A stretch of DNA of 64,000 nucleotides from positions 27,051 through 91,050 of the forward strand of contig WFMF01000610.1 of the NCBI GenBank assembly GCA_011033025.1, read 5' to 3'. Numbering within the stretch: position 1 is the first letter of the stretch; each line of letters starts with the position of its first letter. Shown here in pieces: positions 1 to 50,307 of this stretch. The notes beneath the pieces were generated by a model. That model saw nothing but the letters and a program-made list of their open reading frames with translations, did not search any database and was not told the origin of the DNA. The translations under genes and the position numbers were made by a program. This stretch comes from Beroe forskalii (Eukaryota; Ctenophora; Nuda; Beroida; Beroidae).

Positions 1-212
1 TTCCAAGGAAGTGTTCCATCACCAACAGGATCATCTCCGCCAAAGACCACGCCTCCGTGCAGATCAACATCGGAGAGCTCGATGAGAATGGTACCCTGAC
101 CGGCAAGAACTTCACCTTCGCCAGCTGTGGCTTCGTCAGAGAAATGGGGGAGGCTGACGATTCCTTCAACAAGTTGTGTTCAGACGCCAAGATCCTGAAC
201 TTCAACAACTAA
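1..212 (+). CDS. RPS21: Ribosomal protein eS21 (RPS21), C-terminal exon, partial
   Basis: The window opens inside an open frame (first complete codon at 3) that reads PRKCSITNRIISAKDHASVQ and ends at TAA 210-212. The PRKC-S-NRII-AKDHASVQ core and the later CGFVREMGEADDS segment match the small eS21 family, a 40S subunit surface protein of about 83 residues, so roughly the last 69 residues are present. The N-terminus lies before base 1. The C-terminal tail (about the last 15 residues) differs from the vertebrate form, as is usual in this family. NAXE begins about 200 bases downstream on the same strand. Identification is from recognisable family residues; the missing start cannot be judged. 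Confidence 0.9.
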   Translation, partial: PRKCSITNRIISAKDHASVQINIGELDENGTLTGKNFTFASCGFVREMGEADDSFNKLCSDAKILNFNN

Positions 213-416
213 TCAGAAGATTATTTCCTGCCCTAAAGCGATCTGAAGGATCTAGATACTCAGTGATATATTGGATTATATATTGCTTTTTATTTATTAA
301 GTTGTCGTCATCACTTGTTTTCCGAACACTGCTTTTCGTGCAAGTTATTGTTTCACACACCCTTAGTGATTGAAATATCACAAGGTCTAATCCGCTGTCT
401 CTCTGCTCTAGGATGA

Positions 417-3400: not shown

Positions 3401-6400
3401 CTTTCCTACTTGGCCAAAATAGCACAGTAAAATATAAATCAAGTGCAAAATCTGGGCTAAACTCCCAACACAGCGTTAACCATTATTACAGGGAGGCCCG
3501 TCATAAACATCAATCAATAAATAGGTTATTTATATGTAATAAATAATAACAATAGTAATCAATAATTATGTCATCTGATAAAATTAAATCACAAACTCAC
3601 AAATTTGGTAAATTAACCAAAATTGAAATAATATGGTTGTCAATTGTAATCAATTGACAACCCAAATGGACTTTACTTTTTTCGCTACTCCTCCGCCATT
3701 TTTCAATGTTTCTGCATGAAATTTTCAGAATCGCTTTGAAACTTAATTTCGCACTTATGTTATTGACCAAAATTTTGAGTTAGGCCTCCAAAAATTTTTA
3801 TGCCCATGAGAGCCAAAATCCCCGGGGATTTTGGCTCTCATGGGCATAAAAAAATTTTCTGAAAATTTCATGCAGAAACATTGAAAAATAAGATAATAAA
3901 TCCATGCATTAATTAAACAATCCCAACGGCCAACAATGTACAATTACATTCAATTCAAAACTCAAACGGCAATCAGAGTCCCCACAGCCTTCAGGAAGGT
4001 CAGCTTGTTGTCGTAGGCGTCGATCAGTCTGACAAGGTTCTCGTACTTCACCCAGCGATGATCCCGAGGAGGAGGAGGAGGCTTCCTCATCGTCTGCTGA
4101 GACATTTTCCACTCAGTGATGTCCTTCTCCTTTCTGAGGACGTCGAGGAACTTCCACATGGTAGGTTTGCAGGCGCCCATCAGGGAGTGGAATCCTCTGT
4201 GCCAACCCTCTGCGATGTTGCTGCTCCTAGGAAGAGAGGCGATGACAGAGTGATGGTGGTTCCACATGTAGGGGGAGAAGAGACACACAGGACTGATACA
4301 GGAGCTCCATTGGACTGGTAGTCCCAGAGTACTTACTGTATGGGATTCCCGTAGTGTTCCCTGTCCCATGGGACTGCTTTTTCACATGACAGTATTCCCG
4401 TGGGGTCCTGTAGTACTTACCGCATGCAATCAGCAATGGGTCCCTGTCAGTTGCCCTGAGGTTTCGATCTTTTAAGGCGCGGCATATTACGCCACGCTCG
4501 GGCATTTTTTTTGCGGCGCATTATGTACTTATTAAAGTACATTTGCGCGCTGTTACGCGCTGCAAAAAAATTTTCAAGCGCGGCATGACACGCCGCGCCT
4601 GAAAGGTATTGGCTTATGGCTATTTTCACATATGTGACAATAGTTCGTTCAGTAAGGAACCCCCCAGTTTCAATTCCAGTTCCCTGTTTAACATGCCGTA
4701 CACTTACAGCAAGGGCACAACTGAGTGAGACATAAATTGTATTTGAAGGTTAATAATCTTGTAAAAAGACACAACATTGAAGTTGGCAATTAGAATTGTC
4801 TTAAAAAATATTAATATTCAAATTTTGGAGTCTTAAGCAGTGATTGTTCATCAGTTTCCTCGCACGGCCACAATAAGTTCACTAAAATTAAAAGGTTTTA
4901 AAAGGTCCTTGAAGGTGATATTTTATCTCGCTCCTATAAAAGTTCTATTGTAGTTGGTCAATGTAATTTAATCTAACATTGGCTGCGTTCGGGAAGATTT
5001 AAAACACAAGGGTCCACTCTTATGCAAGGATTTTCATAGCTCAGAAGTCGCAGAAGAACTGTCTCTGAATCTATTAGTATTAGCTTGTAGTATCTTCTCA
5101 TAATTTGTATGAGCAATACTCTCTTGTATGAGTAATGTTATCTGGATGTATGATGCACATGCTTCTGATAGTTCCTCATGCCAGGAATTTGGTGCACGCT
5201 CTTAATGGTATCCACGATGAGCTTAGGGTTGTGTGAGTTGCACAGGTTGCTCAGTCTGTAGGTGTACTTGGTGATGGGGATGCGTCTGTCTGCGGTAACA
5301 CTTCCCTGTAAAACGTGCTGAGCACGTCCTTGTTGCATTGGGGATTGTTGATCCTCTGCCTCTCTCCCTCCCATCCCGTCCCCATATTCCCTGCCGTCCC
5401 CTCCCTGCCACAGACACCACTATCCTCAGCACCGTCCTCCCTCGCCTCCTCCTCCATCTTCTCATGGTACTCTCTATCTCCATCCCCACGTTCAGGTTGA
5501 GTCTGTCTCGTCTGCGTCTCAGTGTCTCCAGCAGCACATCAGGAGTGGCTACTGGGTCTCGAGGAGGAGACAGTACGGGAGGAGGGCTCTCCAGTTCATC
5601 ACCAAGGAAGGGGTGCCCCAGAAATACTGACAACTTGTCGTGGTAGGTCCTACGGAGGTCCCCGAACACAGAAGCGTGGCTCTCCGTGGTCATGTTCTTC
5701 ACAATCTGGTACTGCTGCTCCACACTCTCCTTGTACAGTCGCGGGTATATCTGCTCGGTGTTGTTCATCCAGTTGAGGCTCCAGCAGTCGCCCAGGAAGA
5801 CTCCCAATGTCATCGTCCCACACAGGCGTAGGAGGACTCCATGGAGTTGGCTGCTGTCAGAGCGGTCATGTTCAGGTCCGGACTAAGTCCTTGGAACATG
5901 GATCCGGAGAAGCAGGCCTCCACATACCAGAGCATCTGGGAGTACCTGCCCATCCTGTGCATGTCGTGCAGTGTCTGGTTCAGGTCCACCAAGTGCAGCT
6001 CGTCGTTAGGGAAGCCCAGCACGCCGTTATCTCCATGGTCCACGAAGTTCACGAAGACATGGTCCTTGGGGCCGCTAGCCAGCGTCTTCCTGCTCCCAAC
6101 CCTCATTTCCTCACCTCGCAGTACCTTCAGGAAGTTCTCCGGGTTGACATCTTGACCCATGTAGTCTATCATGGTGCCCTCGTACACATCCGTACCGTGC
6201 AGGGCGTTGATGATTTGACCAGGGTACTTGTTAGCCTTGTTGAATGCTATGTCGTTGTACATCATCACCACGACTTGAGCCTTGGGTATGCCGTGGTGTT
6301 TGGTTAGGAGTCTGTAGAGGTGGCACACGTCGGACTGGTGTCTGTAGTTCATCCAGCCAGCAGATCCCGCCACCATAACCACCCATATCTTACCATGCCT

Positions 6401-8053
6401 GCTCTCCACATCAGCTTTAGCTTCGTTCACCAAAGCATCAAACTTTGATCCTTGAGCAACAAGGAACAAGGCTACTAGGCAAACGATCGATGGTCTCATT
6501 GTTAAACGAACGGATTGATTCGAAAAGTAAAGCGAACGCCAATGAATTAGATTTTTGCCCTGTTATTGCATTAAGAAGTTCGAAGTGTCAGGTTACAGTG
6601 TCATTACTCATCATGCGATTCAGAAGTCATATGATTCATTGATTTACTGTCACGAGAAACTGTTATCTGACGCCACTGATATCATTGTGTACATTCTAAG
6701 AACTCGTGTTGAATGATTAATCAATTTCAAATTATCTGTAAAATTGCGAAATAAGATAATAGCACTTCTTCACTACAACCACACCAACTAACCACTTGAG
6801 GTTAGTTGGAAATGGTTCACACTCGCAGTTCATGCTGCAAAACTTTTTGGGTATCGAGGAGACCTGACTTGGTTCGACATTGAGTGTGTCCCATAACCAA
6901 GGACATTGTCTAAACGTTCGGTAAAACTGGACCTATATGGCGAGTTCCTCGATATGCAAAAAAAAAAAATAGCACTTCTAGATCCTCGAATCTGATTGGT
7001 ATCACAATAATTATCTATTTTCTCAGTAGACTGTACCCGACCTCATACCTAGGTCTGGCAGTAGCTACAGCAGTACAGAAGTCGTACCCCAGCTCAGGAG
7101 ACAATAAAGTGCTTGTAGTGTGTGGTCCGGGTAACAATGGGGGCGATGGTCTGGTGGCGGCCAGACACCTGGCTCTCTTCGGGTACACCCCCTCTGTGGT
7201 GTACCCCAAACAACCCGACAAACACCCCTTCACCCCACTCCTGCACCAGGTAACTTAACAAACACCCCTTCACCCCACTCCTGCACCAGGTAACTTAACA
7301 ATCCGCCCCTTTACTCTCCTTCACCAGGTAACTTAACAAACACCCCTTCACCCCACTCTTGCACCAGGTAACTTAACAAACACCCCTTTACTTTCCTGCA
7401 CCAGGTTAGTGACGCTTACTCAAGCGTTTTATATGTCGTTGTATAGCAGGACCGAGGGTAACTTTCACTTTTCAGTAGATAACATTGCAATTCGCATCAA
7501 CTTCATCAAATCGCATGTATGTGCTGTACTCACTACCATTTCTTGCAGATAAGAGGCATGGGTATTCCGGTCACCACAGACCTTCCTGAAGACCTCACCG
7601 CCTACACCTGCATTGTAGACGCTGTCTTCGGGTTCAGTTTTCAGGGCTCCATCAGGTCTCCCTTCCACACCATTATACCTGCCCTTGCTAACACCAGCAC
7701 TCCTGTTGCCAGTGTGGACGTTCCTTCAGGTGAGATAAGTTAACCTTTACAAATTACAACTGAATGAGCTGTGAACTAAACCCACCACCTTCACCCACAC
7801 TCCTCACCCACCCCCTTCACCTACCCTCTTCACCAACCCTCAATCCTCAGGATGGAACGTGGAGGAAGGGAGTCCCCCGGAGGGTCTACAGCCAGACATC
7901 CTGGTGTCTCTGACTGCCCCCAAACTCTGCGCTAAGAACTTCACGGGGCGCCACCATTGGTTGGGAGGCAGGTTTGTGCCCCCAGACCTCGCTAAGAAAC
8001 ACGAGCTACATCTCCCTGAGTACCCGGGCTCCGAACAAGTAGTCCTCATTTGA
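417..8053 (+). CDS. NAXE: NAD(P)HX epimerase (NAXE / APOA1BP), four exons, intact copy
   Basis: NAXE interconverts the R and S forms of hydrated NAD(P)H so that the NAXD dehydratase can repair them. Exons by splice sites and phase: 417-618, 7053-7249, 7549-7729, 7851-8053, totalling 783 nt (260 residues), against 288 in human. Exon 1 encodes [20 protein letters not shown] and DQLMELAG; exon 2 has the nucleotide-binding [17 protein letters not shown]; exon 3 has [11 protein letters not shown] and SVDVPSG; exon 4 has [29 protein letters not shown] 417 gives a basic, hydrophobic leader that could be a mitochondrial targeting peptide; ATG 513 (MSSTVTYLG) would give a cytosolic form. Intron 1 is 6.4 kb and contains an antisense legumain copy and several repeats. 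A truncated inverted copy lies at 16827-19402. All phases agree, so this appears to be the functional copy. Confidence 0.9.
905..2105. repeat. Foldback-type element of iterated CCAATGGTGCCATTGG palindromes
   Basis: About 1.1-1.2 kb in NAXE intron 1. The sides form a long imperfect inverted repeat: roughly 960-1271 pairs with 1768-2105. For example GGCGAAAGTGTC...AGCACATATCACC on the left matches the reverse complement of GGTGATATGTGCTATCC...GACACTTTCGCC on the right, and AAAGACGCGCG occurs in both arms. The centre (1272-1767) and inner arms are built from short palindromes such as CCAATGGTGCC and GGCACCATTGG, repeated dozens of times with CCATTTAAAT links. Apparent ORFs (for example 861-1223 minus, 1424-1606 plus) are products of the repeat and are not called. 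It looks like a non-autonomous foldback/MITE element; no transposase is present. Confidence 0.7.
2106..2680. other. Intron sequence with diverged repeat pieces, no gene seen
   Basis: No coding exon recognised. A stretch around 2276-2320 (TTTTGACGGTGGTCTTGA) recurs near 2913-2935. A block at about 2580-2645 (AATGAAGGGTACGTCTCCCATATAAACGG, given here only in outline, then GACGTCACTCAG) reappears inverted around 2810-2870, enclosing the TTAGGG-like tract, so the region 2580-2870 is itself a small inverted-repeat element. Confidence 0.45.
2681..2795 (+). repeat. Degenerate telomere-like (TTAGGG)n tract
   Basis: Runs of TTAGGG and variants (TTAGGGTCAGGA, TTAGGATTAAGG, TTAGGGCTATGG) fill about 110 bases on the plus strand. 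TTAGGG is the ancestral animal telomere repeat. Here it is degenerate and interstitial, sitting in the loop between inverted segments at about 2580-2640 and 2810-2870, so it may be cargo of a small element rather than a former chromosome end. Confidence 0.6.
2871..3698. other. NAXE intron 1 sequence, AT-rich, no gene seen
   Basis: No open reading frame with recognisable protein similarity. The stretch 2940-3300 has repeated-looking phrases (AAAATGGC, GGCCATTTT) but no clear unit; 3480-3660 is very AT-rich and simple. Confidence 0.4.
3699..3889. repeat. Nested hairpin with a near-perfect palindrome
   Basis: Outer arms TTTCAATGTTTCTGCATGAA (about 3701-3720) and its complement (about 3868-3888) enclose an inner palindrome at about 3795-3852. 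Its arms read TATGCCCATGAGAGCC then AAAATCCCC and mirror exactly around the central CCCC/GGGG at 3823/3824, with no loop. Likely a small foldback element or the remnant of one; no TSD was identified. Confidence 0.65.
3962..4267 (-). pseudogene. Fragment of a MULE/FLYWCH-associated transposase-like protein
   Basis: The minus-strand frame ends at a stop near 3962 and reads [20 protein letters not shown] followed by [20 protein letters not shown]. The pattern N-xx-EGWH-xx-F...PTxWKF...L resembles the C-terminal part of MULE-like transposase proteins that often carry FLYWCH zinc fingers. Only the last 90 or so residues are present, with no DDE catalytic region, so this is a remnant. The left arm of the large inverted duplication begins inside this fragment at about 4268, and the right arm stops at the matching point near 22002. 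Family assignment rests on a short motif and is tentative. Confidence 0.4.
4475..4600. mobile_element. GC-rich hairpin MITE (AGGCGCGGCAT ends), left-arm copy
   Basis: About 126 bases with inverted ends AGGCGCGGCAT...ATGACACGCCGCGCCT and inner inverted GCGGCGCA / TGCGCGC blocks around TACTTTAATAAGTAC. No coding capacity. The same element sits in the right arm at about 21658-21784, so it was inserted before the duplication. Confidence 0.6.
5138..6499 (-). pseudogene. Legumain-like protease, frameshifted left-arm copy
   Basis: The minus-strand reading from ATG 6499 is nearly identical to the intact copy at 19747-21075 for about 226 codons, covering the signal peptide, the YRHQ substrate-pocket motif, VDHG with the catalytic His and EACFSGSM with the catalytic Cys. 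Near 5810-5815 a 2-nt loss and a 1-nt gain relative to the other copy break the frame. Similarity continues in the 5223-5813 frame through the linker, then shifts again around 5460-5470 and in the C-terminal prodomain. The gene is intronless, lies in NAXE intron 1 on the opposite strand, and probably makes no full protein unless the indels are assembly errors. A truncated product would retain the catalytic dyad but lose the S1-pocket Asp region and prodomain. Confidence 0.85.
7220..7404 (+). repeat. Tandem 40-bp repeat duplicating the NAXE exon 2 splice donor
   Basis: The unit is the last 30 nt of NAXE exon 2 (codons for [10 protein letters not shown]) plus the first 10 nt of the intron (GTAACTTAAC). 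Donor-like CAG|GTAACTT junctions occur at 7249/7250, 7289/7290, 7327/7328 (TTCACCAG variant) and 7367/7368, with a final CAG|GTTAGT at 7404/7405. The first donor keeps the exon 3 phase. Use of any later donor adds GTA ACT TAA, an immediate in-frame stop. The array is larger in the right arm. Confidence 0.85.
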
Positions 8054-8571
8054 GAGGGAACAGCCAGTGCTCAGGTTTGATAAGTTCAAGTTTAAACACA
8101 TCAAGTAAATTACAGATTACGATTGAAAGTATGATCCTCAACTACCTCTTAATATGATTTTCGCCCAAAAAAGCGATTGATGTTTTGTAAAATGTGGTTA
8201 ATTTTGAATTGTAATTACCTAGATATGAAGAGATTTGTAATATTGTATTTTTGCTTTAAAATTTTTATCAGTTTTGAATTGCATGTTACCGTATATTATT
8301 ATTTTTTGTATTACACTCAGAACAGAATTCCGAAGACGAATGTGACTAGTGAAACACATTACAGAACAAATCTTGGAAGGAATCTGAAGTATTCAATCAT
8401 TATTGCAAACATTATTGAATCAAAAACACTCAATAAGTCATAACTCATGAGAGGCTTAAGTAAAAGTTTATTAATATTCATATCTAGGCATTTCTTTCAT
8501 TTACATGTGTAATTACATCGGCTTTGTCCATAATTTCTGAAGACAAGTTGTGCTGTTGTACAACTTCACGT
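8054..8571. other. Region between convergent NAXE and membrane ORF, no gene seen
   Basis: AT-rich 3' flank of NAXE and of the opposing small ORF. A minus-strand polyadenylation-like AATAAA lies near 8460-8480 (plus strand TTTATTAATATT). An ORF of 88 codons at 8177-8443 is AT-driven and has no similarity I recognise. Confidence 0.4.
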
Positions 8572-8880
8572 TCACTTCACTGTCCCTGACTGATCGTTTA
8601 GTATCTCCTCTTCTCTGATATGTTGTTCTCCCCGTTCAACGTCAGATAACATCGCCTCATCCCATAATGTCACGTTATCTCCGTCAGTAACTAATGCCTG
8701 CTCCTCATTGGTTGATCTCTTTGTCACGTGACTGTGTTTGAAGTGGGGTGTTCCGCACAGGCAGCACCCGGAGCAGCAGAGACACACGTACACCACAAGG
8801 CCCAGGAAGGCGCCCGCCACCAGCGCCATATACACGTACACCAGCGTGCAGCTAACCGGGGCGTCGGAGGGTTCGTGCAT
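8572..8880 (-). CDS. Small single-pass membrane protein ORF, unknown
   Basis: A 102-codon ORF from ATG 8880. Residues about 10-45 are strongly hydrophobic and cysteine-rich ([20 protein letters not shown] then [10 protein letters not shown]), fitting one transmembrane helix with a juxtamembrane cluster that could be palmitoylated. A charged tail of about 55 residues follows, containing [21 protein letters not shown] do not recognise a family. It could also be the last exon of a longer gene, as no promoter or start context is visible and a 21-bp minisatellite abuts the start. The right-arm copy (16000-16300) is frameshifted, but the tail amino-acid frame is conserved there. It is divergent from separase exon 1, about 270 bases away. 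Confidence 0.45.
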   Translation of the reverse strand: MHEPSDAPVSCTLVYVYMALVAGAFLGLVVYVCLCCSGCCLCGTPHFKHSHVTKRSTNEEQALVTDGDNVTLWDEAMLSDVERGEQHIREEEILNDQSGTVK

Positions 8881-8883
8881 CAC

Positions 8884-9060
8884 GCGTTACTTAGTGTCTG
8901 TTAGCGTTACTTAGTGCCCTGTAACGCATTACTTGGTAACGCGTTACTTAGTAACTTAATGATCTGTCACGTGTTACTTAGTGTCCTTTCAGGCTTTACT
9001 TAGTACTCTATCACGCGTTACTTAGTGTCCTGTCACGCGATACTTAGTGCCCTGTCATGC
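8884..9060. repeat. 21-22-bp minisatellite (GTTACTTAGTGTCCTGTCACGC) between divergent starts
   Basis: About eight imperfect units built on ACGCGTTACTTAGTG and CCTGTCACG fill the gap between the small membrane ORF (minus) and separase exon 1 (plus). The matching block in the right arm is at about 15820-15990. Units contain ACGCGT and CACGTG/CACGCG cores. Confidence 0.7.
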
Positions 9061-9150
9061 ATGATAGTTTGATGTTATCTTCTAAAATCTGAATTGAGTT
9101 ATATCATGAAATTCTTCTGGCAGGAAATGACCCTTTCTTTCTTCTTGTAG

Positions 9151-12100
9151 GATGTGAGATTTCAGGAGATGGGCAGCTCGATATGGGACACGGTGAGGCA
9201 GCAACTTGAGGAATCAGACGACAAGCTACAATTTGTCAAGGTTAGTGGGTGTGTATTGGAAGGATATTTTTAAGGTTATTTTAAGGTTGTTTAAAGAACA
9301 AATGCAATATTCGTTTCTCCGTCCAACAACACCTCGATATGTTAAGGCAATGTGAACATGTTTCAGTATGATTCAAAGTACTTTCATAATACCGTGAAAA
9401 TTTAAATTGAACAAAAAGGGGCGTCACCTCTCATCAGGTGCATCATTACTGATATCAGAAACACAAAAGGTTCGGCGTAATCCATCATAAATGTTAATTA
9501 TAATCAGGGCTTGGCCAATCAGAACTCCACCAAGTGAATAATGGTTTCATATTAGTTTCTAAGATTATTACGATCAGTAGCTTGAAATAGTATTATTTCG
9601 CCTCTTCAGATTTCAATAATATACGGAGTTGTGGAATGAAATGAAAATTTTGCAAAAAATTCACAGATCGCAATTTATTGAAGCAAATTACAGGCGAAAT
9701 TTAAATCCAGTGGTGCAAGGAACATGCACCCCAAGCAAAATGCAACAACGCAGATAATCACATTTGAGCAATGAGCATGTGGTTAGTGGGTAGAGGTGTG
9801 TACTGTATAGAGGCAATGTGACAAATGGTCATTGGTCATGTATCTCAGCATTCGATTGTAAGATAGGAATGGTTGTCATGACAACGATAGATTGATACAT
9901 AGCCATTACTTGTGGAAACCACTCTATGATGATCATGACATTAATATTTTACTTCTAACTTATCACTTCCTACAATTCGAATATATTTTAGATTTTCAGG
10001 TGTCGCTATAGTTGGAGAAATTAGATTCATCCTGGAATTTCCAAGTCGTGCGGCGCAATAAACGTTCAATGTTCATGGATATTCTTTAAAATCAGTATCA
10101 TGGACGTACAAAATATGGCAGTTATGTGGAAATTTCAAAAGATGTTCTCAGGACTCGCAACATCTACGGCATATTTTTCACGAGTGCAAGTTATAAAACT
10201 CCGTTAATACAAATATATAAATAGAAAATATTAATAACAAATGTAAATGAAAATATTGAATGATAGACTATCGAGTAGTTTATATAAAGCAAAGGTATAC
10301 TATAAACGAGTATTGGAATTGCGTTAATGAGAAATACCCCGTGGATAATACGTTTCTACACCGCTCTTTGCTTCCCCTCACAGCCATGTACATATTACAA
10401 CATGTACTATACTTCTAATGAGTAGCTTTATCTTCGAGGATATTTGATCATAAGCTAGCAACGTCCCAAATAGAAAAAAGGCCCCATACAAACGTAAAAG
10501 CAGGACCGTATAGATCATACTGGTTTCAAGTTACGGGTTTTAGAATGAAACAATTATAGTCAGAGATTGAAGGAGTGAATTCATGACAGAATTATCAGGG
10601 GTTGGGTGTGAAGTCAAACTACATGAAGTACCCTCTGGTGCACGAGAATTTTACTTTGTCAGTAGTTAATTAGACTTGTGTACACAACACGACGTATGTC
10701 AGTATCCCTTCCCTTATCTAACTTTATTTCAGGAAAAGTTGGCTAAGTATGAAGCAGGGTCCAAGCATGCGCCGGCGCTGTGTAACCTTGGAAACCACCT
10801 GATCAAGTACGTTTTGGACTGCTTGGTCAAGAAGTCGGGGAATGCCAAGGAGCTCACATCGCTCGCTTTAGAGGTACGGTTATTATAATGGGACATGTTC
10901 ATTGTTCAAGTTATAGGTTGGTTTCACCCAATTGCTATTATCAGTTTTCTCAGATTGCTATTATCAGTTTTCTCAGATTGCTATTATCAGTTTTCTCAGA
11001 TTGCTATTATCAGTTTTCAGATTGCTATTATCAGTTTTCAGATTGCTATTATCAGTTTTCAGATTGCTATTATCAGTTTTCTTGTGTGTGTTAATTCTGC
11101 AGCTCGCTTATCAGTTATCTCAAATCTGCAACACGCACACAATTACTCTGTGCAACACTGTGTACAAGGAGTACACAAAATGGTGTTTTCATTGGAAAAC
11201 CTATACGCAGTGGAACATGATGTGGACTCAGTATTCAGTGGATTGTTTGGTGACAAGTGGCAGGAGTTGACGAAGGCAGCATTGATGAAGTGTGACAAAG
11301 CGACCCTTTCAACCCTCGTTTTGTCAGCTGTGGGCGTTCTGGGGAAGAGTAAGACCATGCTACGATCAGCGGCTGTGTACGTGGAAGAGCTACACAAGGA
11401 ACAGATTGAGTGCCAGAAGGCACTACTAAAAGGTAAACTCCAGGAGAGCCTGTTAATGAGCAACTGCGACAAGATTGAAGCTCTAGAGACTACTGTGAAG
11501 AAGGAGATGAAGAGTTTCAGCGACGTGGTGAAGCAGGGCTGTGATGAGAAGATCACGGCAACGCAGGTGAAAGCGGCAGTCAAGTCGGCTGTAATGGACG
11601 ATGACAGAAGGAGAACCGTGATGGTTTTCGGTCTTGAGGAGGCATCCAACGAAGTCGTGCGGGAGAAGATCGATGAAGTTCTCTGTGTCAGCTGTCCGAC
11701 GGAGAAGCCTGCAGTTAGTGACTGTGTTCGTGTTGGGAGTGTAAGAGCAGGAGCCCGGCGTCCAGTCAAGATCGTGTTTCGCAGCAACGAAGGAGCAGCG
11801 GCGGTGTTACGGAGTGCCAAGAACTTGCGGGAGACTCGTTTCAGCCGAGTGTTCATCTCCCCCGATAGAACGCGCGAAGAAAGAGCAGAACGGAATGGAC
11901 TTGTGAGCAAGATGAAGGAGAATATCAGGAGCCAGCCACAGCTTTATCATTACATCAGTAATGGACAAGTGTGCAGCAGAGAAAAGGTGCAACCCTCTCC
12001 TCTCAATGTATCGCGTTCGTCTCAACCTCAGCCTATCACGCCTCAGACAACGCCACGGATTACATCATCCACGAACATTCAAATCACGGGCCGTGATCCC

Positions 12101-15100
12101 TCACACAGGACAGGACTGGGTGGAAACCCTCCGCCAAGTCCTTTTCCACCGTTTTAAGTGTGCTATGTTGTATGTATTTGAGTGCTGATTTTGAGTGTCA
12201 GATTGGAAATAGACATGATACAGTCGCAATTTCAGACTGCACTGTACTGCGAACACATGGCTTTCAGCCATCTCAATGTCTCTGTGGTTTTATTTATAAT
12301 TTTTATTGTACACATTATATTTGTTTCAAAGCCCTTAGTGGTGCCCCACCGTGGGTTTCAATCAATCAATCAATTTTTCGTATCCGGCTAGAGCACATGA
12401 TTGCGATTTAGACTATTCCCAACGTAGCCATGAAGTAGCCAACCTATCGTTGAGATTGACTGTTGGTATATGGAAATTATGCACCTTCCAGGCATGTTTT
12501 TGCTGAATTTAAAAATCCCTATAGGCACCAAGGTACCGTGCGCAATGAATTATTACGCACTGAAGTGCTAAAATCTGAATTTATTATTATTACGCACTCC
12601 AGGTTATAATAATTTACGCACTCCAGGTTATAATAATTTATTATGGTCCAGTGCATAATTCAGTTTAATAACTCGTAAAAGACGCAAACCTCTGCAATAA
12701 AAACCTCGGCCTTCGGCCTCGGTATTTAATGAAGGGTTTAGTAACGAGTAAAAAGTACTAAGCGTCATATTACACGAGGGCCGAAGGCCCGAGTGTAATA
12801 TGGCATTAAAACCGAGGCCGAAGGCCGAGGTTTAAATCTTAGTTTAGTACTTTTTACGAGTTATTAAACTGAATTATGCAACTTCTAAGGAGGTTTACAC
12901 GCAGTGCTCCTTTATACCCATTATGCACGCTAAAACAGTTACAGTTTTGAAAAGTGTAACTACAGTGCCAAAAAAGTGGAACTACAGTTGATAATAAAAA
13001 CCATTTTGGCATTGTTCCCCAGTGTTTTCAAAACGTGACCCTTACTATAGCGGGAGAGGTGTTAAAAATGAACACTGGGGTGACAGACCACAGATTTCAC
13101 ACTGAAAGATACAGTAGCTGCTCTTATCACAATAGCTCAAATATTATATAGACAAGCCATTAACACTACATACCTATTCTCATATTCTTGCTTGAATTAT
13201 GCATAATTACGTAATATATGCCTACATGTATTGTCGTTGCATAATTCGGTTTTGTAACTCGCAAAAACTGCAAACCTTCCATTAAAACCTCGGCCTTCGG
13301 CCTCGGTCTTAATGTGTTATTATGCCCTCGCGCTTCGCGCTCGGTGCATAATATCGCGGTTTGCAACTTTTGCTAGTTACAAAACCTCTCATTATACACC
13401 GACTTTACTCGAAAAAATGGCAATATTTTCATACACAAGGAAATGTTTTAAATTAAGATATGAAGGTACAGTTTGCTCAACTGTGTGAAATAAATTATTA
13501 CGCACTGTTCCACTGCACCATGATAAATTATGACCTACAGTGCGTAATAAATCCGGATTTCGGCACTACAGTGTAATAATTTATTGCGCACGGTACCCTG
13601 AATGCCTATAGGGTTTTTGAATACATAGCATAAACATGCCTGGAAAGGTGCATAATGCGATATTACACTGGGGCCTTCGGCCTGTGTATAATATCCCGGT
13701 TAACAATTTTTAATCGTTACTAAACCCTTCATTTTGAACGTGTTCAAAAAAGAATAGAAAAAATTAAAATACACGCCACTTTTGCATTTTGATTGGTTTG
13801 AGGAACAAAGTAGGAAACCGTAAAAAGAAGTCATGAACCTTGCTCGCGGAAATGGAAATAGGAAATTATTCAAATGCCAGAAGCCAAATAGCGAACTAAA
13901 TAGTGCACTAAGAGAAATGCCTTTTACTTTGGAATAATATGAAGATATAAACTTTACTTTGGATATAAAAGTAGAGAACTGAATTTTCCGTCTAAAACGA
14001 TACTTCTCTCTAAAATAAAATCGCGTTACTACTCCGTCAAAAACTTATCTGACCACGAGCTAACTCCAACTGCCTAAAATCATTCTGATGAATTAATTAA
14101 GAAGAAAGTACCGTTTACGACTTAATACTTATCCTAAAAATATTCAGAAAAAATATTCCGACAAAATATTCAGAAAAGTACTATTCAGAAAAGCACGTCC
14201 TAAAACTATAGCTAACACGGTTCAAGTACTAATGAGACTTCCTCCGATAATCCGATATTTCTCTTAGTTTCTTACATAGCTTGGTGGAAGTGATTCCATA
14301 ATCCATTGTTCCTTGAGAAGAGGAGAAGTTCTATCAATTTTCTGTTTTCGTCAATCATCAGATCTACTCATCGGCTTCCATCCGAGTCTGTCATCTATAA
14401 AAATATCTTGAGCATGGTTCGGTCTCAGTTATGTCTTTACATCAGCAGCCCTATTTCTCAACTTAAAAATATCTCAAAAGGAAGCTGAGATATCTTTATT
14501 CAAAATTTGGGCTAACGCTGGGTCAAAAAAGGGGTTGGAAAAAGGGGGTTCCTCATGAAATATCTTGGACAGCTTTTTTCTGGTACAACTTTAGTCTATT
14601 TACAACCGATACATGTATTTGAAATCATAATAAGTGCCAATTTACCCACAGCATGGCCATATTTACATGAACCGGTTTTTGCCCCTTTGCGTATGGTGAA
14701 AAAGGGGTTTTGGCGATTATCTCGAAAACGGAGCAAGATAGCGACTTGGAACCATGATCCGCCCGACCTAATGTGACCATTGCGAACATTTTAGTGTGGT
14801 TATTGAGCTTTCTATCTCAAAAGGAAGCTGAGATATCGGCAATCGAAGTTTTACCCTGCACGCGTGGTAAAAAGGGGTAAAAAATCAAGGTTCCCCAAGG
14901 AATTTTCTGGACAACTTTTTTTTGGTGGTTCTTGACCCTATGGACTACCAAATTCCATTCTAACATCTATGGGAGGATTTACTTCACTGGGGGTTATGGA
15001 TCCATCCCTTACTACATTCCTATCTTACAATCGAATGCTGAGATGCATGACCAATGACCATTTGTCACATTGCCTCTATACAGTACACACCTCTACCCAC

Positions 15101-18100
15101 TAACTACATGCTCAAATGTGATTATCTGCGTTGTTGCATTTTGCTTGGGGTGCATGTTCCTTGCACCACTGGATTAAAATTTCGCCTGTAATTTGCTTCA
15201 ATAAATTGCGATCTGTGAATTTTTTGCAAAATTTTCATTTCATTCCACAACTCCGTATATTGAAATCTGAAGAGGCGAAATAATACTATTTCAAGCTACT
15301 GATCGTAATAATCTTAGAAACTAATATGAAACCATTATTCACTTGGTGGAGTTCTGATTGGCCAAGCCCTGATTATAATTACATTTATGATGGATTACGC
15401 CGAACCTTTTGTGTTTCTGATATCAGTAATGATGCACCTGATGAGAGGTGACGCCCCTTTTTGTTCAATTTAAAATTTCACGGTATTATGAAAGTACTTT
15501 GAATCATACTGAAACATGTTCACATTGCCTTAACATATCGAGGTGTTGGACGGAGAAACGAATATTGCATTTGTTCTTTAAACAACCTTAAAAATAACCT
15601 TTAAAAATATCCTTCCAATACACACCCACTAACCTTCGACAAATTGTGGCCATCGTCTTGATTCCTCAAGTTGCTGCCTCACCGTGTCCCATCGAGCTGC
15701 CCATCTCCTGAAATCTCATCCCACAAGAAGCAGAAAGAAAGGGTCATTTTCTGCCAGAAGAATTTCATGATATAACTCAATTCAGATTTTAGAAGATAAC
15801 ATCAAACTATCATGCATGACAGGGGCACTAAGTATCGCGTGACAGGACTAAGTAACGCGTGATAGAGTACTAAGTAAAGCCTGAAAGGACACTAAGTAAC
15901 ACGTGACAGATCATTAAGTTACTAAGTAACGCGTTACCGGCAATGCGTTACAGGGCACTAAGTAACGCTAACAGACACTGGCAACGCGTGATGCAGAACC
16001 CTCCGACGCCCCGGGTTAGCTGCGCTGGTGAACGTGTATATGGCGCTGGTGGTGGCGGGCGCCTTCCTGGGCCTTGTGGTGTACGTGTGTCTCTGCTGCT
16101 CCGGGTGCTGCCTGTGCAACACCCCACTTCAAACACAGTCACGTGACAAAGAGATCAACCAATGAGGAGCAGGCATTAGTTACTGACGGAGATAACGTGA
16201 CATTATGGGATGAGGCGATGTTATCTGACGTTGAACGGGGGAGAACAACATATCAGAGAAGAGGAGATACTAAACGATCAGTCAGGGACAGTGAAGTGAA
16301 CGTGAAGTTGTACAACAGCACAACTTGTCTTCAGAAATTATGGATAAAGCCGATGTAATTACACATGTAAATGAAAGAAATGCCTAGGATATGAATATTA
16401 ATAAACTTTTACTTAAGCCTCTCATGAGTTATGACTTATTGAGTGTTTTTGATGCAATAATGTTTGCAATAATGATTGAATATTTCAGATTCCTTCCAAG
16501 ATTTGTTCTGTAATGTGTTTCATTAGTCACATTCGTCTTCGAATTCTGTTCTGAGTGTAATACAAAAAATAATAATATACGGTAACATGCAATTCAAAAC
16601 TGATAAAAAATTTTAAAGCAAAAATACAATATTACAAATCTCTTCATATCTAGGTAATTACAATTCAAAATTAACCACATTTTACAAAACATCAATCGCT
16701 TTTTTGGGCGAAAATCATATTAATAAGAGGTAGTTGAGGATCATACTTTCAATCGTAATCTGTAATTTACTTGATGTGTTTAAACTTGAATTTATCAAAC
16801 CTGAGCACTGGCTGTTCCCTCTCAAATGAGGACTACTTGTTCGAGCCCGGGTACTCAGGGAGATGTAGCTCGTGTTTCTTAGCGAGGTCTGGGGGCACAA
16901 ACCTGCCTCCCAACCAATGGTGGCGCCCCGTGAAGTTCTTAGCGCAGAGTTTGGGGGCAGTCAGAGACACCAGGATGTCTGGCTGTAGACCCTCCGGGGG
17001 ACTCCCTTCCTCCACGTTCCATCCTGAGGATTGAGGGTTGGTGAAGAGGGTAGGTGAAGGGGTGGGTGAGGAGTGTGGGTGAAGGTGGTGGGTTTAGTTC
17101 ACAGCTCATTCAGTTGTAATTTGTAAAGGTTAACTTATCTCACCTGAAGGAACGTCCACACTGGCAACAGGAGTGCTGGTGTTAGCAAGGGCAGGTATAA
17201 TGGTGTGGAAGGGAGACCTGATGGAGCCCTGAAAACTGAACCCGAAGACAGCGTCTACAATGCAGGTGTAGGCAGTGAGGTCTTCAGGAAGGTCTGTGGT
17301 GACCGGAATACCCATGCCTCTTATCTGCAAGAAATGGTAGTGAGTACAGCACATACATGCGATTTGATGAAGTTGATGCGAATTGCAATGTTATCTACTG
17401 AAAAGTGAAAGTTACCCTCGGTCCTGCTATAGAACGACATATAAAACGCTTGAGTAAGCGTCACTAACCTGGTGCAGGAAAGTAAGGGGGTGTAAGGACC
17501 AATACACTATACTGAAGTTGCCGATTTTATTTTACTACCAGCTTCATTTCATAAAATTATGCAGATTAGTGAAAACCCGAGCTCTCTATCTGCTTTCTAC
17601 ACTGAGTTACAGCGATATTAAGTGTACGTAATTTGATCATGCTGCTACGTCATAAATCACTGATTCGCAGGAAGAGGAATGTATCACGCACTGCGTAATA
17701 TCATAGTTTACATTAGAACGTAGTCGGAAATCATTGTTTGCTTGTCGTGTATTGTTCCACCCTGTTTACTAATATTTTTGAGGGACAATAATTACATAGT
17801 TTGGAATTGATATTAATTACTAGGGATCAACTAACTAATAAGCTAACAGTATATTTGCATTACTGATTAATATGATATATCAAATCAAGGGAAGTGAGCA
17901 ACTGAGCACATTAGCTTTATGAATAGCACCGTACAGATAGGAAATTAACTCCTACTGCTCTAGTGTTTTACTGTCTCCACTTCTAAAATCAGTTCAGAAC
18001 TCAGTTTCCTAGAGTATGAACTAGAGTATGAACACTGTAGGTCCTGGTCTGTAGTCCATGGAATCCACTTAGATTCATTCATCAGAATGGTCAATGGACA

Positions 18101-21100
18101 TGTCAAGTTCATCGTCATTGGACTATTGAACTTATGATTTCGAATGTCCCTCATTGGATTTGATCATTAACTGTTAGTTTCAATCCTATCAGATGGTTTT
18201 ATGATTACGTACTTGGACCCATCAGAAATTTTAGATTATAGGACTTATGATGTTCATCGGACCACAATTACCATAATCACATCAACATTAGCTGAATTTT
18301 CTTAGCCAAGTTAGATTTGCCCAGAACATACATTGCGTTTGTTTAAGAAGTTAAAAAAGTTAGAAACATATTAATATTGCAATGAATATTGTCAATAAAT
18401 CAATTAAGCATTGTCAACCCATTACTATACTTAATCGGACCAAATTTTTGGGAATTTGGGGTGTCAGATGGGCACAATTGGACAATACCATCTATGATCA
18501 ACGGATGTTTCGACCGACGACTCCTGGAAGTAACTTAAAGATCAATATTTAATGATACCTTCAATATAAAAGACAAGATTTGCTAATTTTTACCGCTTTT
18601 AATATGTATGATCCAGAAGCATTTGCTTCATCATTTTTCAAAGATTTTACCAAATTAGATAATTAGCACAATAATAGACACCAGTTGATATCATCCATAG
18701 TCACCAATTTGAGTAAACAATGCACCCCTGAACCAAAACAAAACAACACAAAACACATCATTATACAGTGTTTATACAGCGCTCAGAGGCGTAGCAGCAC
18801 TAATTGTAATCGATATCAGTGATTCGTGACGTATCATAGCGGAATACGGAGTTACACTTTACACGCTTGTATCTCAGAAATTAGATCACGTAGAGAGATC
18901 GGAATTTCACTAAAGTGTGTGTAATAAATTGCTGCGTAATATTGGATGATTAATCATTTAATTTTTTAAACTCGATTCTATAGTGTATTGGTCCTTTAAG
19001 TTACCTGGTGCAGGAGGGGAGTGAAGGGGTGTTTGTTAAGTTACCTGGTGCAGGAGGGGAGTGAAGGGGTGTTTGTTAAGTTACCTGTTGCAGGAGGGGA
19101 GTGAAGGGGTGTTTGTTAAGTTACCTGGTGCAGGAGGGGAGTGAAGGGGTGTTTGTTAAGTTACCTGTTGCAGGAGGGGAGTGAAGGGGTGTTTTTTTAA
19201 GTTACCTGGTGCAGGAGGGGAGTGAAGGGGTGTTTGTCGGGTTGTTTGGGGTACACCACAGAGGGGGTGTACCCGAAGAGAGCCAGGTGTCTGGCCGCCA
19301 CCAGACCATCGCCCCCATTGTTACCCGGACCACACACTACAAGCACTTTATTGTCTCCTGAGCTGGGGTACGACTTCTGTACTGCTGTAGCTACTGCCAG
19401 ACCTAGGTATGAGGTCGAGGTACAGTCTACTGAGAAAATAGATAATTATTGTGATACCAATCAGATTCGAGGATCTAGAAGTGCTATTATCTTATTTCGC
19501 AATTTCACAGATAATTTGAAATTGATTAATCATTCAACACGAGTTCTTAGAATGTACACAATGATATCAGTGGCGTCAGATAACAGTTTCTCGTGACAGT
19601 AAATCAATGAATCATATGACTTCTGAATCGCATGATGAGTAATGACACTGTAACCTGACACTTCGAACTTCTTAATGCAATAACAGGGCAAAAATCTAAT
19701 TCATTGGCGTTCGCTTTACTTTTCGAATCAATCCGTTCGTTTAACAATGAGATCATCGATCGTTTGGCTAGTAGCCTTGTTCCTTGTTGCTCAAGGATCA
19801 AAGTTTGATGCTATGGTGAACGATGCTAAAGCTGATGTGGAGAGCAGGCATGGTAAGATATGGGTGGTTATGGTGGCGGGATCTGCTGGCTGGATGAATT
19901 ACAGACACCAGTCCGACGTGTGCCACCTCTACAGACTCCTAACCAAACACCACGGCATACCCAAGGCTCAAGTCGTGGTGATGATGTACAACGACATTGC
20001 ATTTAACAAGGCTAACAAGTACCCCGGTCAAATCATCAACGCCCTGCACGGAACGGATGTCTACGAGGGCACCATGATAGACTACATGGGGCAGGATGTC
20101 AACCCAGAGAACTTCCTGAAGGTACTGCGAGGCGAGGAAATGAGGGTTGGGAGCAGGAAGACGCTGGCTAGCGGCCCCAAGGACCATGTCTTCGTGAACT
20201 TCGTGGATCATGGAGATAACGGCGTGCTGGGCTTCCCTAACGACGAGCTGCACTTGGTGGACCTGAACCAGACACTGCATGACATGCACAGGATGGGCAG
20301 GTACTCCCAGATGCTCTGGTATGTGGAGGCCTGCTTCTCAGGATCCATGTTCCAAGGACTTAGTCCGGACCTGAACATGACCGCTCTGACAGCAGCCAAC
20401 TCCATGGAGTCCTCCTACGCCTGTGTGTGGGACGATGACATTGGAGTCTTCCTGGGCGACTGCTGGAGCCTCAACTGGATGAACAACACCGAGCAGATAT
20501 ACCCGCGACTGTACAAGGAGAGTGTGGAGCAGCAGTACCAGATTGTGAAGAACATGACCACGGAGAGCCACGCTTCTGTGTTCGGGGACCTCCGTAGGAC
20601 TTACCACGACAAGTTGTCGGTATTCCTGGGGCACCCCTTCCTTGGTGATGAACTGGAGAGCCCTCCTCCCGTACTCTCTCCTCCTAGAGACCCAGTAGCC
20701 ACTCCTGATGTGCTGCTGGAGACACTGAGACGCAGACGAGACAGACTCAACCTGAACGTGGGGATGGAGATAGAGTACCACGAGAAGATGGAGGAGGAGG
20801 CGAGGAGGACGGTGCTGAGGATAGTGGTGTCTGTGGCAGGGGAGGGGACGGCAGGGAATATGGGGAAGCGATGGGAGGCAGAGGAGAGGCAGAGGATCAA
20901 CAATCCTCAGTGCAACAAGGACGTGCTCAGCACGTTTTACAGGGAATGTTACCGCAGACAGACGCATCCCTACATCACCAAGTACACCTACAGACTGAGC
21001 AACCTGTGCAATTCACACAACTCTAAGCTGATCGTGGATACCATTAAAAGAGCGTGCACCAAATTCCTGGCATGAGGAACTATCAGAAGCATGTGCATCA

Positions 21101-24100
21101 TACATCAAGATAACATTACTCATACAAATGAGTATTGCTCATACAAATTAGAGGTTATGAGAAGATACTATTACTCAAGCTAATAGATTCAGCGACTGTT
21201 CATCTGCGACTTCTGAGCTATGAAAATCCTTGCATAAGAGTGGACCCTTGTGTTTTAAATCTTCCCGAACGCAGCCAATGTTAGATTAAATTACATTGAC
21301 CAACTACAATAGAACTTTTATAGGAGCGAGATAAAATATCACCTTCGAGGACCTTTTAGAACCTTTTAATTTTAGTGAACTTATTGTGGCCGTGCGAGGA
21401 AACTGATGAACAATCACTGCTTCAGACTCCAAAAATTTGAATATTAATATTTTTAAGACAATTCTAATTGCCAACTTCAATGTTGTGTCTTTTTACAAGA
21501 TTATTAACCTTCAAATACAATTTATGTCTCACTCAGTTGTGCCCTTGCTGTAAGTGTACGGCATGTTAAACAGGGAACTGGAATTGAAACTGGGGGGTTC
21601 CTTACTGAACGAACTATTGTCACATATGTGAAAATAGCCATAAGCCAATACCTTTCAGGCGCGGCGTGTCATGCCGCGCTTGAAAATTTTTTTGCAGCGC
21701 GTAACAGCGCGCAAATGTACTTTAATAAGTACATAATGCGCCGCAAAAAAAAATGCCCGAGCGTGGCGTAATATGCCGCGCCTTAAAAGATCGAAACCTC
21801 AGGGCAACTGACAGGGACCCATTGCTGATTGCATGCGGTAAGTACTACAGGACCCCACGGGAATACTGTCATGTGAAAAAGCAGTCCCATGGGACAGGGA
21901 ACACTACGGGAATCCCATACTGATAGTGATACAGTAAGTACTCTGGGACTACCAGTCCAATGGAGCTCCTGTATCACTCCTGTGTGTCTCTTCTCCCCCT
22001 ACCCAGCCGGCACAAAGAAACCAAACCAAAAATAAACCAATAAAAAACGTTTTTCTTTTGTTTAATTTTGGTTTTCGTCAAACGTTATTTCTAAACGTTT
22101 TTGATACGTTTAATAGACGGATCTGTAGAAACGTTTACACCAAAACCAAAATTAAACGTTTCTGATACGTTTATTTTTGGTTTATCTATAACGTTTTTTC
22201 TATAAAACCATAAATAAACGTATGTGGAACGTTTATTTATGGTTCACAGAAAACTAATTTGTGGATTGAAGTTTCGTTCCATAGAAACCTCAAGTAAACG
22301 TTTAAAACCCTATGTGTAGCACCCACAAGGGCTTTGAAATGAAACTTAATCAGTTAATCAGTACAATAACCATGGAATCCTCCTGGACTTGCGACGGGAA
22401 GATCCACACCCAAGGATACCACGAGTCCCCAACCTAGTTGGGACTCGACGGAACCCCGGAATACCAACACTGGGCACTGGGCAGGAAGTTCTTCCAGTTT
22501 CCCGTATCCATGTTGGCGACACCAACATGGGAGGTACGGGATTCGTTCCCATCCCAGCCCTGGCAACAGAACAAGAACAAACAGCATCACCGCCCTTTCT
22601 TTCACTTTCAGTCGTCGTGTTTCTCAGCAAATTTCACCGCCGCTTTCAGCTCTCTTTTCTTTCTTCATACCCCAGCTCATGCTTGACCGCATCACTGACA
22701 CTCCTCAAACTCACTCTTGAATTGCTCACATTTACTCTGCTGTAGCCGAGTTTCCTGATTTTTGATCGGAGTCCGCCTCAACTGATGAATCGATCCAGCT
22801 GCTGACTCTGCTCTTGCTCTCTTGACAAGAAAACCGCAGACAGCTGTCAAAACCAAATTTGACTGAGTAGACTAGACTTGTCAAACTTCATCACTGCCGT
22901 CTTGCAGTACAGTTGACCTCGTCCCACTTTTCACCAAACACAGCATTGAAAGTTCATTTCCTTCGCCACACTGTGCAGATTTTCTAGCGAGAATTTAATG
23001 CATAATCTTTGAACACTATATAACTAAAAGTAAGTATATAAGGCCCCAAAACCGCAAAAGAGTCGTCGCTGAATTACCTCCCTTAAAATTGGATGAGGCC
23101 GTTCAAACCCATGCGACTCCTCCGAACACACTTTGGGTCCACTTTGGGCCATAGCGGCAATAGTCCCGAGTGGACAACTTCCATATTCCATAACCCCTTG
23201 CCATTGCGGCAAAACGGATTGATACCCATCTGATCCACTTAAAAAACACAAAATTCCCAAAAGACATCAACTGACAACTCGCCACATCAAATTGCCACAC
23301 CAACTCAAATGTCACACACCAACTCAAGGGTCCTGAAGCCCCATAGCGGGATACCAGTCCCACCCTTACCAAGGGTTCTGAAGCCCTGCTGGGATACCAG
23401 TCCCCCCTTACCAAGGATCTAGCCCCAAGTGGGATACCAATTACCAGTCCTTCCTTTACCAAGGATCTGAAGCCCCAAGGGATACCAGTCCCACCCTTAC
23501 CAAGGGTTCTGAAGCCCCAAGTGGGATACCAGTCCTTCCCTTATCAAGGATCTGAAGCCCCAAGCGGGATACCAGTCATTCCCTTACTAAGGATCTGAAG
23601 CCCCAAGTGGGATACCAATTACCAGTCCTTCCCTTACCAAGGATCTGAAGACCCAAGTGGGATACCAGTCCCACCCTTACCAAGGGTTCTGAAGCCCCAA
23701 AAGGGATACCAGTCCCTCCCTTACCAAGAATCTGAAGCCCCAAGTGGGATACCAATTACCAGTCCTTCCCTTACCAAGGATCTGAAGCCCCAAGCGGGAT
23801 ACCAGTCCTTCCCTTATCAAGGATCTGAAGCCCCAAGCAGGATACAAGTCCATCTCTTATCAAGGGTTCTGAAGCCCCACAGCGGGGATACCAGTCCTCC
23901 CAACCAAGGGTTCTGAAGCCCCACAGCGGGATACCAGTCCCTTAGTCTGACTCTAGCCTCAGCTAAGATGCTTAAAATCCTGAAACTTTTTCGGGTATAT
24001 GCTTACAATCTTGACACTTGTCCCACGTTTTTCTTCAAATACACTCTGTTCTGCTTTCTGAAGCAAATACCAGGCATCGTAATGGATATTGCATCATTAA

Positions 24101-49705: not shown

Positions 49706-50307
49706 CCCGCCCTGCCGAAACGCGTCCTACTCTTCCGAAACTTAACAAGCGAAGCACTTAGCATCCTTGGCTCTCGCTTAGCAGAAGATTACTTCTAATC
49801 AAATCAAGACTTGTCATGGCATTTCCAGAGCTGTTTTCTCCCAATGAGAAGGGTTTCTCTCTTATCGTCTCTCAAGAAAACTCCCATCTCTGAGCGATGA
49901 AGGGCATTGAAAGTCGCAGTTTCAAATAATTTCTGTAATGAGTGATGTAACTTAAAAACTTAAGAACAAATCATTGTTTATTACTGACCTATCTGAATCT
50001 CCAGTATTTTAACTTATAGTTTCAGTATTTAGTTTCAGACGAAATAGTACTTCAGTTATAAAATAATGTGCGTATTAATATTATTTGTCCTTTTTTCTAT
50101 CTAGAATTGATTTTCAATCATGTTATTGACTTACTATCACTAGAAATTGTTTTAATTCTGAGTGGTACTGGTATACTGAAGGGTTTAGCAACGAGTAAAA
50201 AGTGCACTGAGCGCGTAGTCGTACCCATTTAACGAATATTATTTGTGTTTTTTCAAAATTAATATATTTATTGTTCTGTTTTTTCTTTTGAAGATAAAAT
50301 CAATAAC
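49706..50307 (+). other. 3' flank of separase, no gene seen
   Basis: AT-rich intergenic sequence after the separase stop. A fragment near 50175-50205 (GAAGGGTTTAGCAACGAGTAAAAAGT in outline) resembles the hairpin MITEs at 12.7 and 27.3 kb, suggesting a remnant. Confidence 0.4.

Follow-up and report, generated by a model that had tools for sequence, protein, structure and literature searches.

Two copies of a NAXE-legumain locus in one contig of Beroe forskalii: possibly two alleles joined by assembly

We analysed a window of 64,000 nucleotides from a contig of Beroe forskalii (WFMF01000610.1); positions refer to this window unless contig positions are indicated. The region carries genes for NAXE, legumain and separase, and we found that a locus of about 20 kb, which consists of a flank (F), an arm (A) and a segment (B), is present twice within this single 91-kb contig. 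The first-pass annotation had described a large inverted duplication at 4268-22002. This duplication exists in the assembled sequence, but it is not the full pattern: a direct repeat had been missed, and there is a second inverted repeat. The arms A1 (4268-9871, plus strand) and A2 (15015-22002, inverted, minus strand) are about 97% identical in BLAST, which is far above chance. They match in three blocks of 2533 bp (96.7%), 460 bp (93.7%, minisatellite) and 2510 bp (97.2%), and the bounds given before (4268-9866 and 15019-22002) were corrected to a left-arm end at 9871 and a right-arm start at 15015. Segment B (copy 1, 9868-14469, plus strand) recurs in direct orientation at 25938-29557 (plus strand). 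The second inverted repeat pairs contig positions 4708-11861 with 21561-29566 and lies mostly outside the window; it repeats the flank with exon 1 of NAXE (F1, window part 1-2516, plus strand; inverted copy F2 at contig 4708-11861). Copy 1 of the locus is complete and ordered (contig 21561-41519), copy 2 consists of three pieces, two of them inverted, and F, A and B are each paired one-to-one within the contig. When the left-arm stretch 5000-5800 was compared with the 216-Mb assembly, the two strong matches were the two arms themselves; the remaining three matches were short (123-129 bp) and 73-83% identical. For the downstream region 44600-50200, no second copy was found among the 40 of 412 candidates that were scored. 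With 29558-49550 as query, matches to a retrotransposon family dominated.

The two copies differ by several repeat insertions that are present in one copy only. A SINE-like element with poly-A and a 12-bp target duplication (6759-6967, plus strand) sits in the left arm, and the right arm has the empty site. Conversely, the dispersed repeat TE5 (17494-18996, no strand assigned) is inserted in the right-arm minisatellite and is lacking in the left arm. Segment B carries two dispersed-repeat inserts in copy 1 (about 10934-12371 and 12881-13391), and its copy 2 has an insert at about 28335-29286. Dispersed repeats also make up a large part of the spacer and almost the whole of 22003-25937, which had been overlooked before. 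Divergence between the copies ranges from 0% to 4.35% across 11 blocks (chi-square 102, 10 df), and such unevenness would be expected for alleles with recombination. The copies show the allele-like divergence and the insertion polymorphisms of uncollapsed haplotypes, although the same picture could come from older duplicates that underwent gene conversion.

The joins between the pieces lie inside transposons. One end of a transposon T (14470-15014, plus strand; 545 bp, GGATCC-type) has its tip at 15014 next to A2 and breaks off at 14470, and the other end (24988-25937, plus strand; GATACA-type) has its tip adjoining the second copy of segment B. A2 ends with GGAATG at the one tip, the second B segment starts with ATGGTTG at the other, and copy 1 reads GGAATGGTTG without T, which corresponds to a 3-bp target duplication (ATG). 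All three other elements with both ends compared (C625, C292, C426) have the same pair of end types and are flanked by 3-bp duplications (ATA, AGA, AAT). Since both T ends with matching target duplications sit on A2 and on the second B segment, the assembled letters show that these two pieces were once neighbours in the order of copy 1. The two T ends differ by 7.7%, which might seem to contradict young copies. This objection was dropped, since each element has one end of either type and the ends of two other elements differ by 3.6% and 6.8%. Between A2 and the second T end lie TE2 (22003-23142, plus strand), which apparently starts at its own terminus beside the arm and is cut at 23142, and TE3 (23148-24987, plus strand), which is cut at both ends. 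No obvious shared homology was seen at the joins 14469/14470 and TE2/TE3, and a simple repeat-collapse misjoin at T is not supported by the former. The TE2/TE3 join carries a repeated CACTTTGGG, which resembles DNA end joining more than an assembler jump through a repeat.

Legumain is encoded in both arms. In the right arm it forms a single open frame (coding sequence 19747-21075, plus strand), and the frame 19684-21075 carries both the C13 catalytic domain and the legumain prodomain (Pfam C13, E 5.6e-89; PDB legumain 4nok, E 1.7e-91). In the left arm (5142-6499, minus strand) the C-terminal part is frame-broken by nine indels, eight of which are not multiples of three. The earlier claim that legumain is intact in the right arm only is correct as a comparison of the arms; this gene is, however, not the only working copy, since three other loci (C307, C969, C425) carry intact single-frame legumain genes. 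The substitutions give a different picture from the indels. We counted 23 synonymous and 7 nonsynonymous differences (pS 0.081, pN 0.007, pN/pS 0.09), which shows that both legumain copies remained under selection with strong constraint. When the 32 legumain differences were polarised with two paralogues, the paralogue base was found in the right copy alone in 13 cases, in the left copy alone in 10, in both in 3 and in neither in 6. With 13 versus 10 changes neither copy looks relaxed, and relaxed selection on the disabled copy, a mark of reciprocal gene loss, was not detected by either measure. Paralogue matches are mixed along the gene, and a clear tract of gene conversion from the other legumain loci was not seen.

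Copy 1 encodes a complete NAXE protein of 228 residues (exons at 513-618, 7053-7249, 7549-7729 and 7851-8053), which matches PDB 2dg2 (apolipoprotein A-I binding protein, for which NAXE is another name) over residues 3-225 (E 7.5e-87), a near full-length match to the YjeF_N family. Exons 2-4 (7053-8053, plus strand) are intact in the left arm, and the right-arm exons differ from them by only three substitutions and two indels; a one-base loss in right-arm exon 4 alters the last residues. NAXE had been reported as intact in the left arm only. This agrees with the complete protein of copy 1 and the damaged right exon 4, but exon 1 is located outside the arm, in the flank, and shows no differences between its two copies. 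A minisatellite with a period of about 40 (7218-7406, plus strand) overlaps the end of exon 2. A small open frame for a possible membrane protein (8572-8886, minus strand) is intact in the left arm and differs between the arms by one substitution and six indels. The putative exon 1 of separase (9164-9240, plus strand), which carries indels in the right arm, is suggested only by its position and splice donor, whereas separase itself was confirmed downstream by two catalytic exons with the C50 protease domain of Pfam (47806-48144 and 48788-49147, plus strand, within 47806-49147).

The relation of indels to substitutions was 44:68 in the arms, 28:22 in the inner arm and 6:1 in the small open frame. 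Transposon TE1 pairs, all of which share the window copy, gave 36:398 (arms, p 6e-14), and private changes of non-window copies, summed over seven blocks, gave 70:302 (arms, p 2e-5). TE3 behaved differently: 11 comparisons with its window copy, among them a tandem array, gave 362:447 (arms, p 0.31), and the private changes found in its non-window copies gave 30:65, which the arms again matched (p 0.31) but the inner arm did not (p 0.007). Thus, indels are in excess in the arms relative to most transposon controls, and TE3 is the exception. Nine legumain indels predict 29 nonsynonymous changes under the seven-block control and 75 under TE1, compared with 7 seen; the strength of this argument depends on the control, since the TE3 ratio (362:447) predicts only about 8. 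In the window copies of TE1, TE2 and the T ends, no block tested had more than one short private indel, and the simple idea of errors throughout the region was therefore rejected.

We favour, with an even chance, the reading that two diverged alleles of one locus were joined by assembly and that the frame-breaking indels are mostly consensus errors. Both alleles would have been built into one contig, with neither set aside as an alternative haplotype, and the joins would be made by the assembly. The indels in each arm would mostly be uncorrected errors of noisy long reads, which fit the broken genes better than decay does. Correction reads would go to the cleaner copy, so that the breaks alternate between the arms and a reciprocal pattern arises. 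One report on bacterial assemblies describes repeats as the main place of residual errors, which may persist as reads prefer the error-free copy (PMC8812927). Another describes that several long-read assemblers yield uncollapsed haplotypes (PMC8178825). The first-pass annotation had named misjoined haplotypes as its alternative, and this alternative, though unproven, fits better than complementary loss. Several observations speak against this reading: the TE3 control equals the arms in its share of indels, the joins lack obvious homology and the errors would be unevenly spread. In addition, the proteasome family occupies 13 contigs with no evident near-identical pair, although a haplotig on another contig would be indistinguishable and two neighbouring matches in C269 overlap in the profile. 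Thus, the assembly is probably mostly haploid, which counts against the allele model.

The internal position of the joins in T, TE2 and TE3, the repeated motif between TE2 and TE3 and the proteasome family, which gave no hint that the assembly is generally duplicated, would all suit a real duplication in cis, perhaps between homologues, to which we assign an appreciable but minor probability. T would have inserted between A2 and the second B segment, breakage in T and TE2 would have inverted A2 and F2, and the gene breaks would again mostly be consensus errors; separase splicing across the long intron may still be possible. Such a history needs several rearrangements, has to accommodate the uneven divergence and requires gene conversion or another special cause for a legumain pS of 8% compared with 0.9% in the inner arm. 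The first-pass annotation had instead proposed complementary loss after a real duplication, the right arm having lost NAXE and the inner genes and the left arm legumain, so that each arm keeps one working gene. In the reading frames of the assembled letters the two duplicates do have different disabled genes, distributed as proposed, and the legumain indels would be proportionate if indels really arose in this genome at the rate seen in TE3. However, nine legumain indels stand beside a total of seven nonsynonymous changes (far below the non-TE3 expectations), both legumain lineages changed about equally, the small open frame has six indels to one substitution, and three other legumain loci are intact. 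With legumain constrained, neither copy relaxed and indels in excess of most controls, the proposal is unsupported and we regard it as improbable. An amplification or fold-back artefact built into the contig from palindromic chimeric reads is more doubtful still. One account describes such reads as frequent after MDA and as impairing long-read assembly (PMC13265396), but if one molecule had folded back, both arms would represent a single allele. With 23 synonymous legumain differences and different transposon insertions between the arms, a missed adapter or same-molecule fold-back was rejected.

The locus resembles uncollapsed haplotypes in that two diverged alleles would be kept in an assembly meant as haploid; here, however, a single contig holds both, and the second is fragmented and partly inverted. 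In one description, the allelic palindromes of the 2013 Adineta vaga assembly place homologous copies on a single scaffold in mirrored order, and an assembly artefact is named as one possible reason (PMC5916493). They are multi-gene blocks, whereas the present locus measures about 20 kb and is broken into three pieces. In DUP-TRP/INV-DUP rearrangements an inverted copy also lies between direct duplicated segments (A-B-A'-B), but the junctions described for them fall within inverted repeats (PMC4352052) and those found here inside unrelated transposons.

Under the joined-allele reading, an uncorrected duplicate can mimic complementary gene loss, the tidy reciprocal pattern included. Simple checks are the ratio of indels to substitutions, set beside that of several controls, the pN/pS of the two copies and the target duplications of transposons. 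Tentatively, and with a probability well short of even, one chromosome may carry two diverged NAXE-legumain-separase alleles in cis, the second broken inside a transposon with two pieces inverted, and an intron in the 5' part of separase would then hold the genes upstream of it a second time, in inverted orientation. A real rearrangement would illustrate well how breakage within a transposon scrambles one copy of an essential locus.

The assembly comprises 216 Mb in 1134 contigs; the window covers C704:27051-91050, and its right end is the end of that contig. BLAST comparison bore out the first-pass annotation in that two arms of opposite orientation are present, a left arm (A1) at 4268-9871 and a right arm (A2) at 15015-22002. 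They align in three blocks of 2533 bp (96.7% identity, 46 mismatches), 460 bp (a minisatellite; 93.7%, 20 mismatches) and 2510 bp (97.2%, 22 mismatches). When a piece of the left arm was used to probe the assembly, both arms were the strong matches and three short places matched more weakly. Putative separase exon 1 lies in the arms, where it is assigned by position only. Segment B at 9868-14469 (B1) recurs as a direct repeat at 25938-29557 (B2). Self-comparison of the contig, which took in 27 kb left of the window, yielded a second inverted repeat (contig 4708-11861 vs. 21561-29566) with block identities from 90.7% to 100%; it includes NAXE exon 1, which does not differ between its two copies. 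This repeat (loci L006-L008 together with window 1-2516) measures about 7-8 kb, and its 9.7-kb loop is not palindromic itself and consists in part of dispersed repeats. Downstream, at 44600-50200, no second copy was seen among the 40 of 412 candidates scored, and part of the loop (contig 12900-18400) had none except repeat pieces among 40 of 3590 scored. The contig therefore has a two-copy layout of flank (F), arm and segment B. Copy 1 is F1-A1-B1 in order, and copy 2 is F2 (inverted), A2 (inverted) and B2 (direct), followed by the region with the rest of separase.

Copy 2 carries two ends of a transposon (T) of a dispersed family, a GGATCC-type end at 14470-15014 adjoining the inner end of A2 and a GATACA-type end at 24988-25937 adjoining the start of B2. 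In this family, the ends often occur as inverted pairs a few kb apart and the tip is CCCTTACTA in most copies shown. The inverted ends (window ends and loci L050-L068) are built from tandem units of about 344 bp. The three other elements for which both ends were compared (C625, L061/L050; C292, L058/L060; C426, L055/L067) all have one end of each type and 3-bp flanking duplications (ATA, AGA and AAT). Because ATG flanks both T ends, on A2 and on B2, respectively, and copy 1 reads GGAATGGTTG at the insertion point without the element, we infer that T landed between A2 and B2 while these still adjoined each other as A1 and B1 do in copy 1. The present inversion of A2 postdates this insertion and is either a change in the animal's own DNA or a product of assembly. 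On the outer side of A2, the dispersed repeat TE2 (22003-23142) appears to begin at its own terminus, since one other copy (L035) sets in at that base too, preceded by unrelated sequence, and it is cut at 23142. The repeat TE3 (23148-24987) is truncated on either side; among the 11 other copies shown, every one extends past the right cut and 10 extend past the left.

Further features of the window are a ~1 kb tandem duplicate (87%) at 32293-34300 with a beta/gamma-crystallin domain in its first copy, a retrotransposon at 39035-44024 (reverse transcriptase at 41705-43270) of a dispersed family that dominated a search of this region (39 candidates scored), and an uninterrupted 1097-aa frame at 58637-61927 with five SRCR stretches and ephrin-receptor-like repeats. 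A 24-bp minisatellite at the right end of the contig (62497-63962; 50 copies within 62497-63701) has long open frames on both strands.

The first-pass annotation had proposed that each arm keeps one working gene. Copy-1 NAXE is indeed complete (228 aa, four exons; E 7.5e-87 against PDB 2dg2), and outside the two arms NAXE exons gave one weak match only, on C527. The right-arm legumain (R) is open as described and the left (L) is broken by nine indels, eight of them not multiples of three, but R is not the sole intact copy: intact frames of 461-468 aa, each match within a single frame, were found at C307:220233-221003, C969:129664-130434 and C425:610437-611207. Among 32 differences, the base of two paralogues was present in R alone at 13, in L alone at 10, in both at 3 and in neither at 6. 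Over 434 codons (8 of 442 touching a gap were omitted), L and R differ by 23 synonymous vs. 7 nonsynonymous changes (pS 0.081, pN 0.007, Fisher p 1.4e-10), which speaks against complementary loss.

Outside the minisatellite block, the arms show 44 gap openings vs. 68 mismatches; the inner arm has an indel-to-substitution ratio of 28:22 and the small ORF (8572-8886 in A1) one of 6:1. Controls gave 36:398 for the repeat TE1 (contig copy against other copies, ten comparisons; 12:8 with L010 alone), 70:302 for private changes in non-window copies of seven blocks, 8:67 for TE4 and 14:68 for TE2. For TE3, the ratio was 362:447 with the window copy in 11 comparisons (tandem array included) and 30:65 for private changes in non-window copies. 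Arms and inner arm were clearly indel-rich relative to the first four controls (arms p 6e-14 to 9e-4), but the arms were not set apart from TE3 (p 0.31 for both counts), which the inner arm exceeded in the private-change count only (p 0.007); pair p-values for TE1 and TE3 are optimistic because one sequence is common to each set of pairs. The TE3 control speaks against reading the arm indels as sequence errors. Either some TE3 copies (L022, L025 and that of the window) may themselves contain error-rich patches, or a high share of indels may simply be how this repeat varies.

Single-base events make up 23 of the 41 short arm indels, and 17 of the 23 lie in runs of at least two. Within the window, TE1, TE2 (except 22311-22585), the left T end and the part of the right T end covered by the comparison are nearly clean, with no more than one private short indel per block, and the TE3 window copy has 6 in 1042 bp. 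Many private short indels occur in single transposon copies (L010 on C809, L022 on C183, L025 on C382, L034 on C574), hinting at error-rich patches elsewhere in the assembly. Patchy errors are expected where correction reads choose among near-identical places, as described in a study of bacterial assemblies (PMC8812927).

For the legumain copies, the number of nonsynonymous changes predicted to accompany nine indels is 29 if the seven-block rate applies, 15 with the private TE3 rate and 8 with that of the TE3 pairs; the probability of seeing no more than 7 is then 1e-6, 0.02 and 0.41, respectively. If the last rate held for this genome, the indels would be in proportion, which would count in favor of true complementary loss of genes; we consider such loss improbable. 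An amplification artefact is very improbable. Substitution density is highly uneven among blocks (chi-square 102, 10 df): it is 0% over a block of 253 bp and 0.19% over one of 1067 bp, and reaches 2.7% over 2572 bp and 4.35% in the minisatellite block of 460 bp. Each copy has private insertions: the left arm has a SINE-like piece bounded by a target duplication, the right-arm minisatellite holds TE5 (17494-18996), B1 contains TE1 plus another repeat, B2 has an insert of about 950 bp, and T is confined to copy 2. Such a pattern would suit two alleles in an outbred animal, and older duplicates with gene conversion could also explain it. Proteasome matches, with all 34 of 34 candidates scored, fell on 13 contigs and included no evident near-identical pair, although this search does not distinguish a haplotig placed on a separate contig; on C269, two neighbouring matches overlap in profile. 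The joins between the pieces look like end joining, which would fit a real rearranged duplication, and we hold this explanation to be possible, if doubtful. That misassembled alleles account for the duplicated locus has, in our judgement, about an even chance of being correct.
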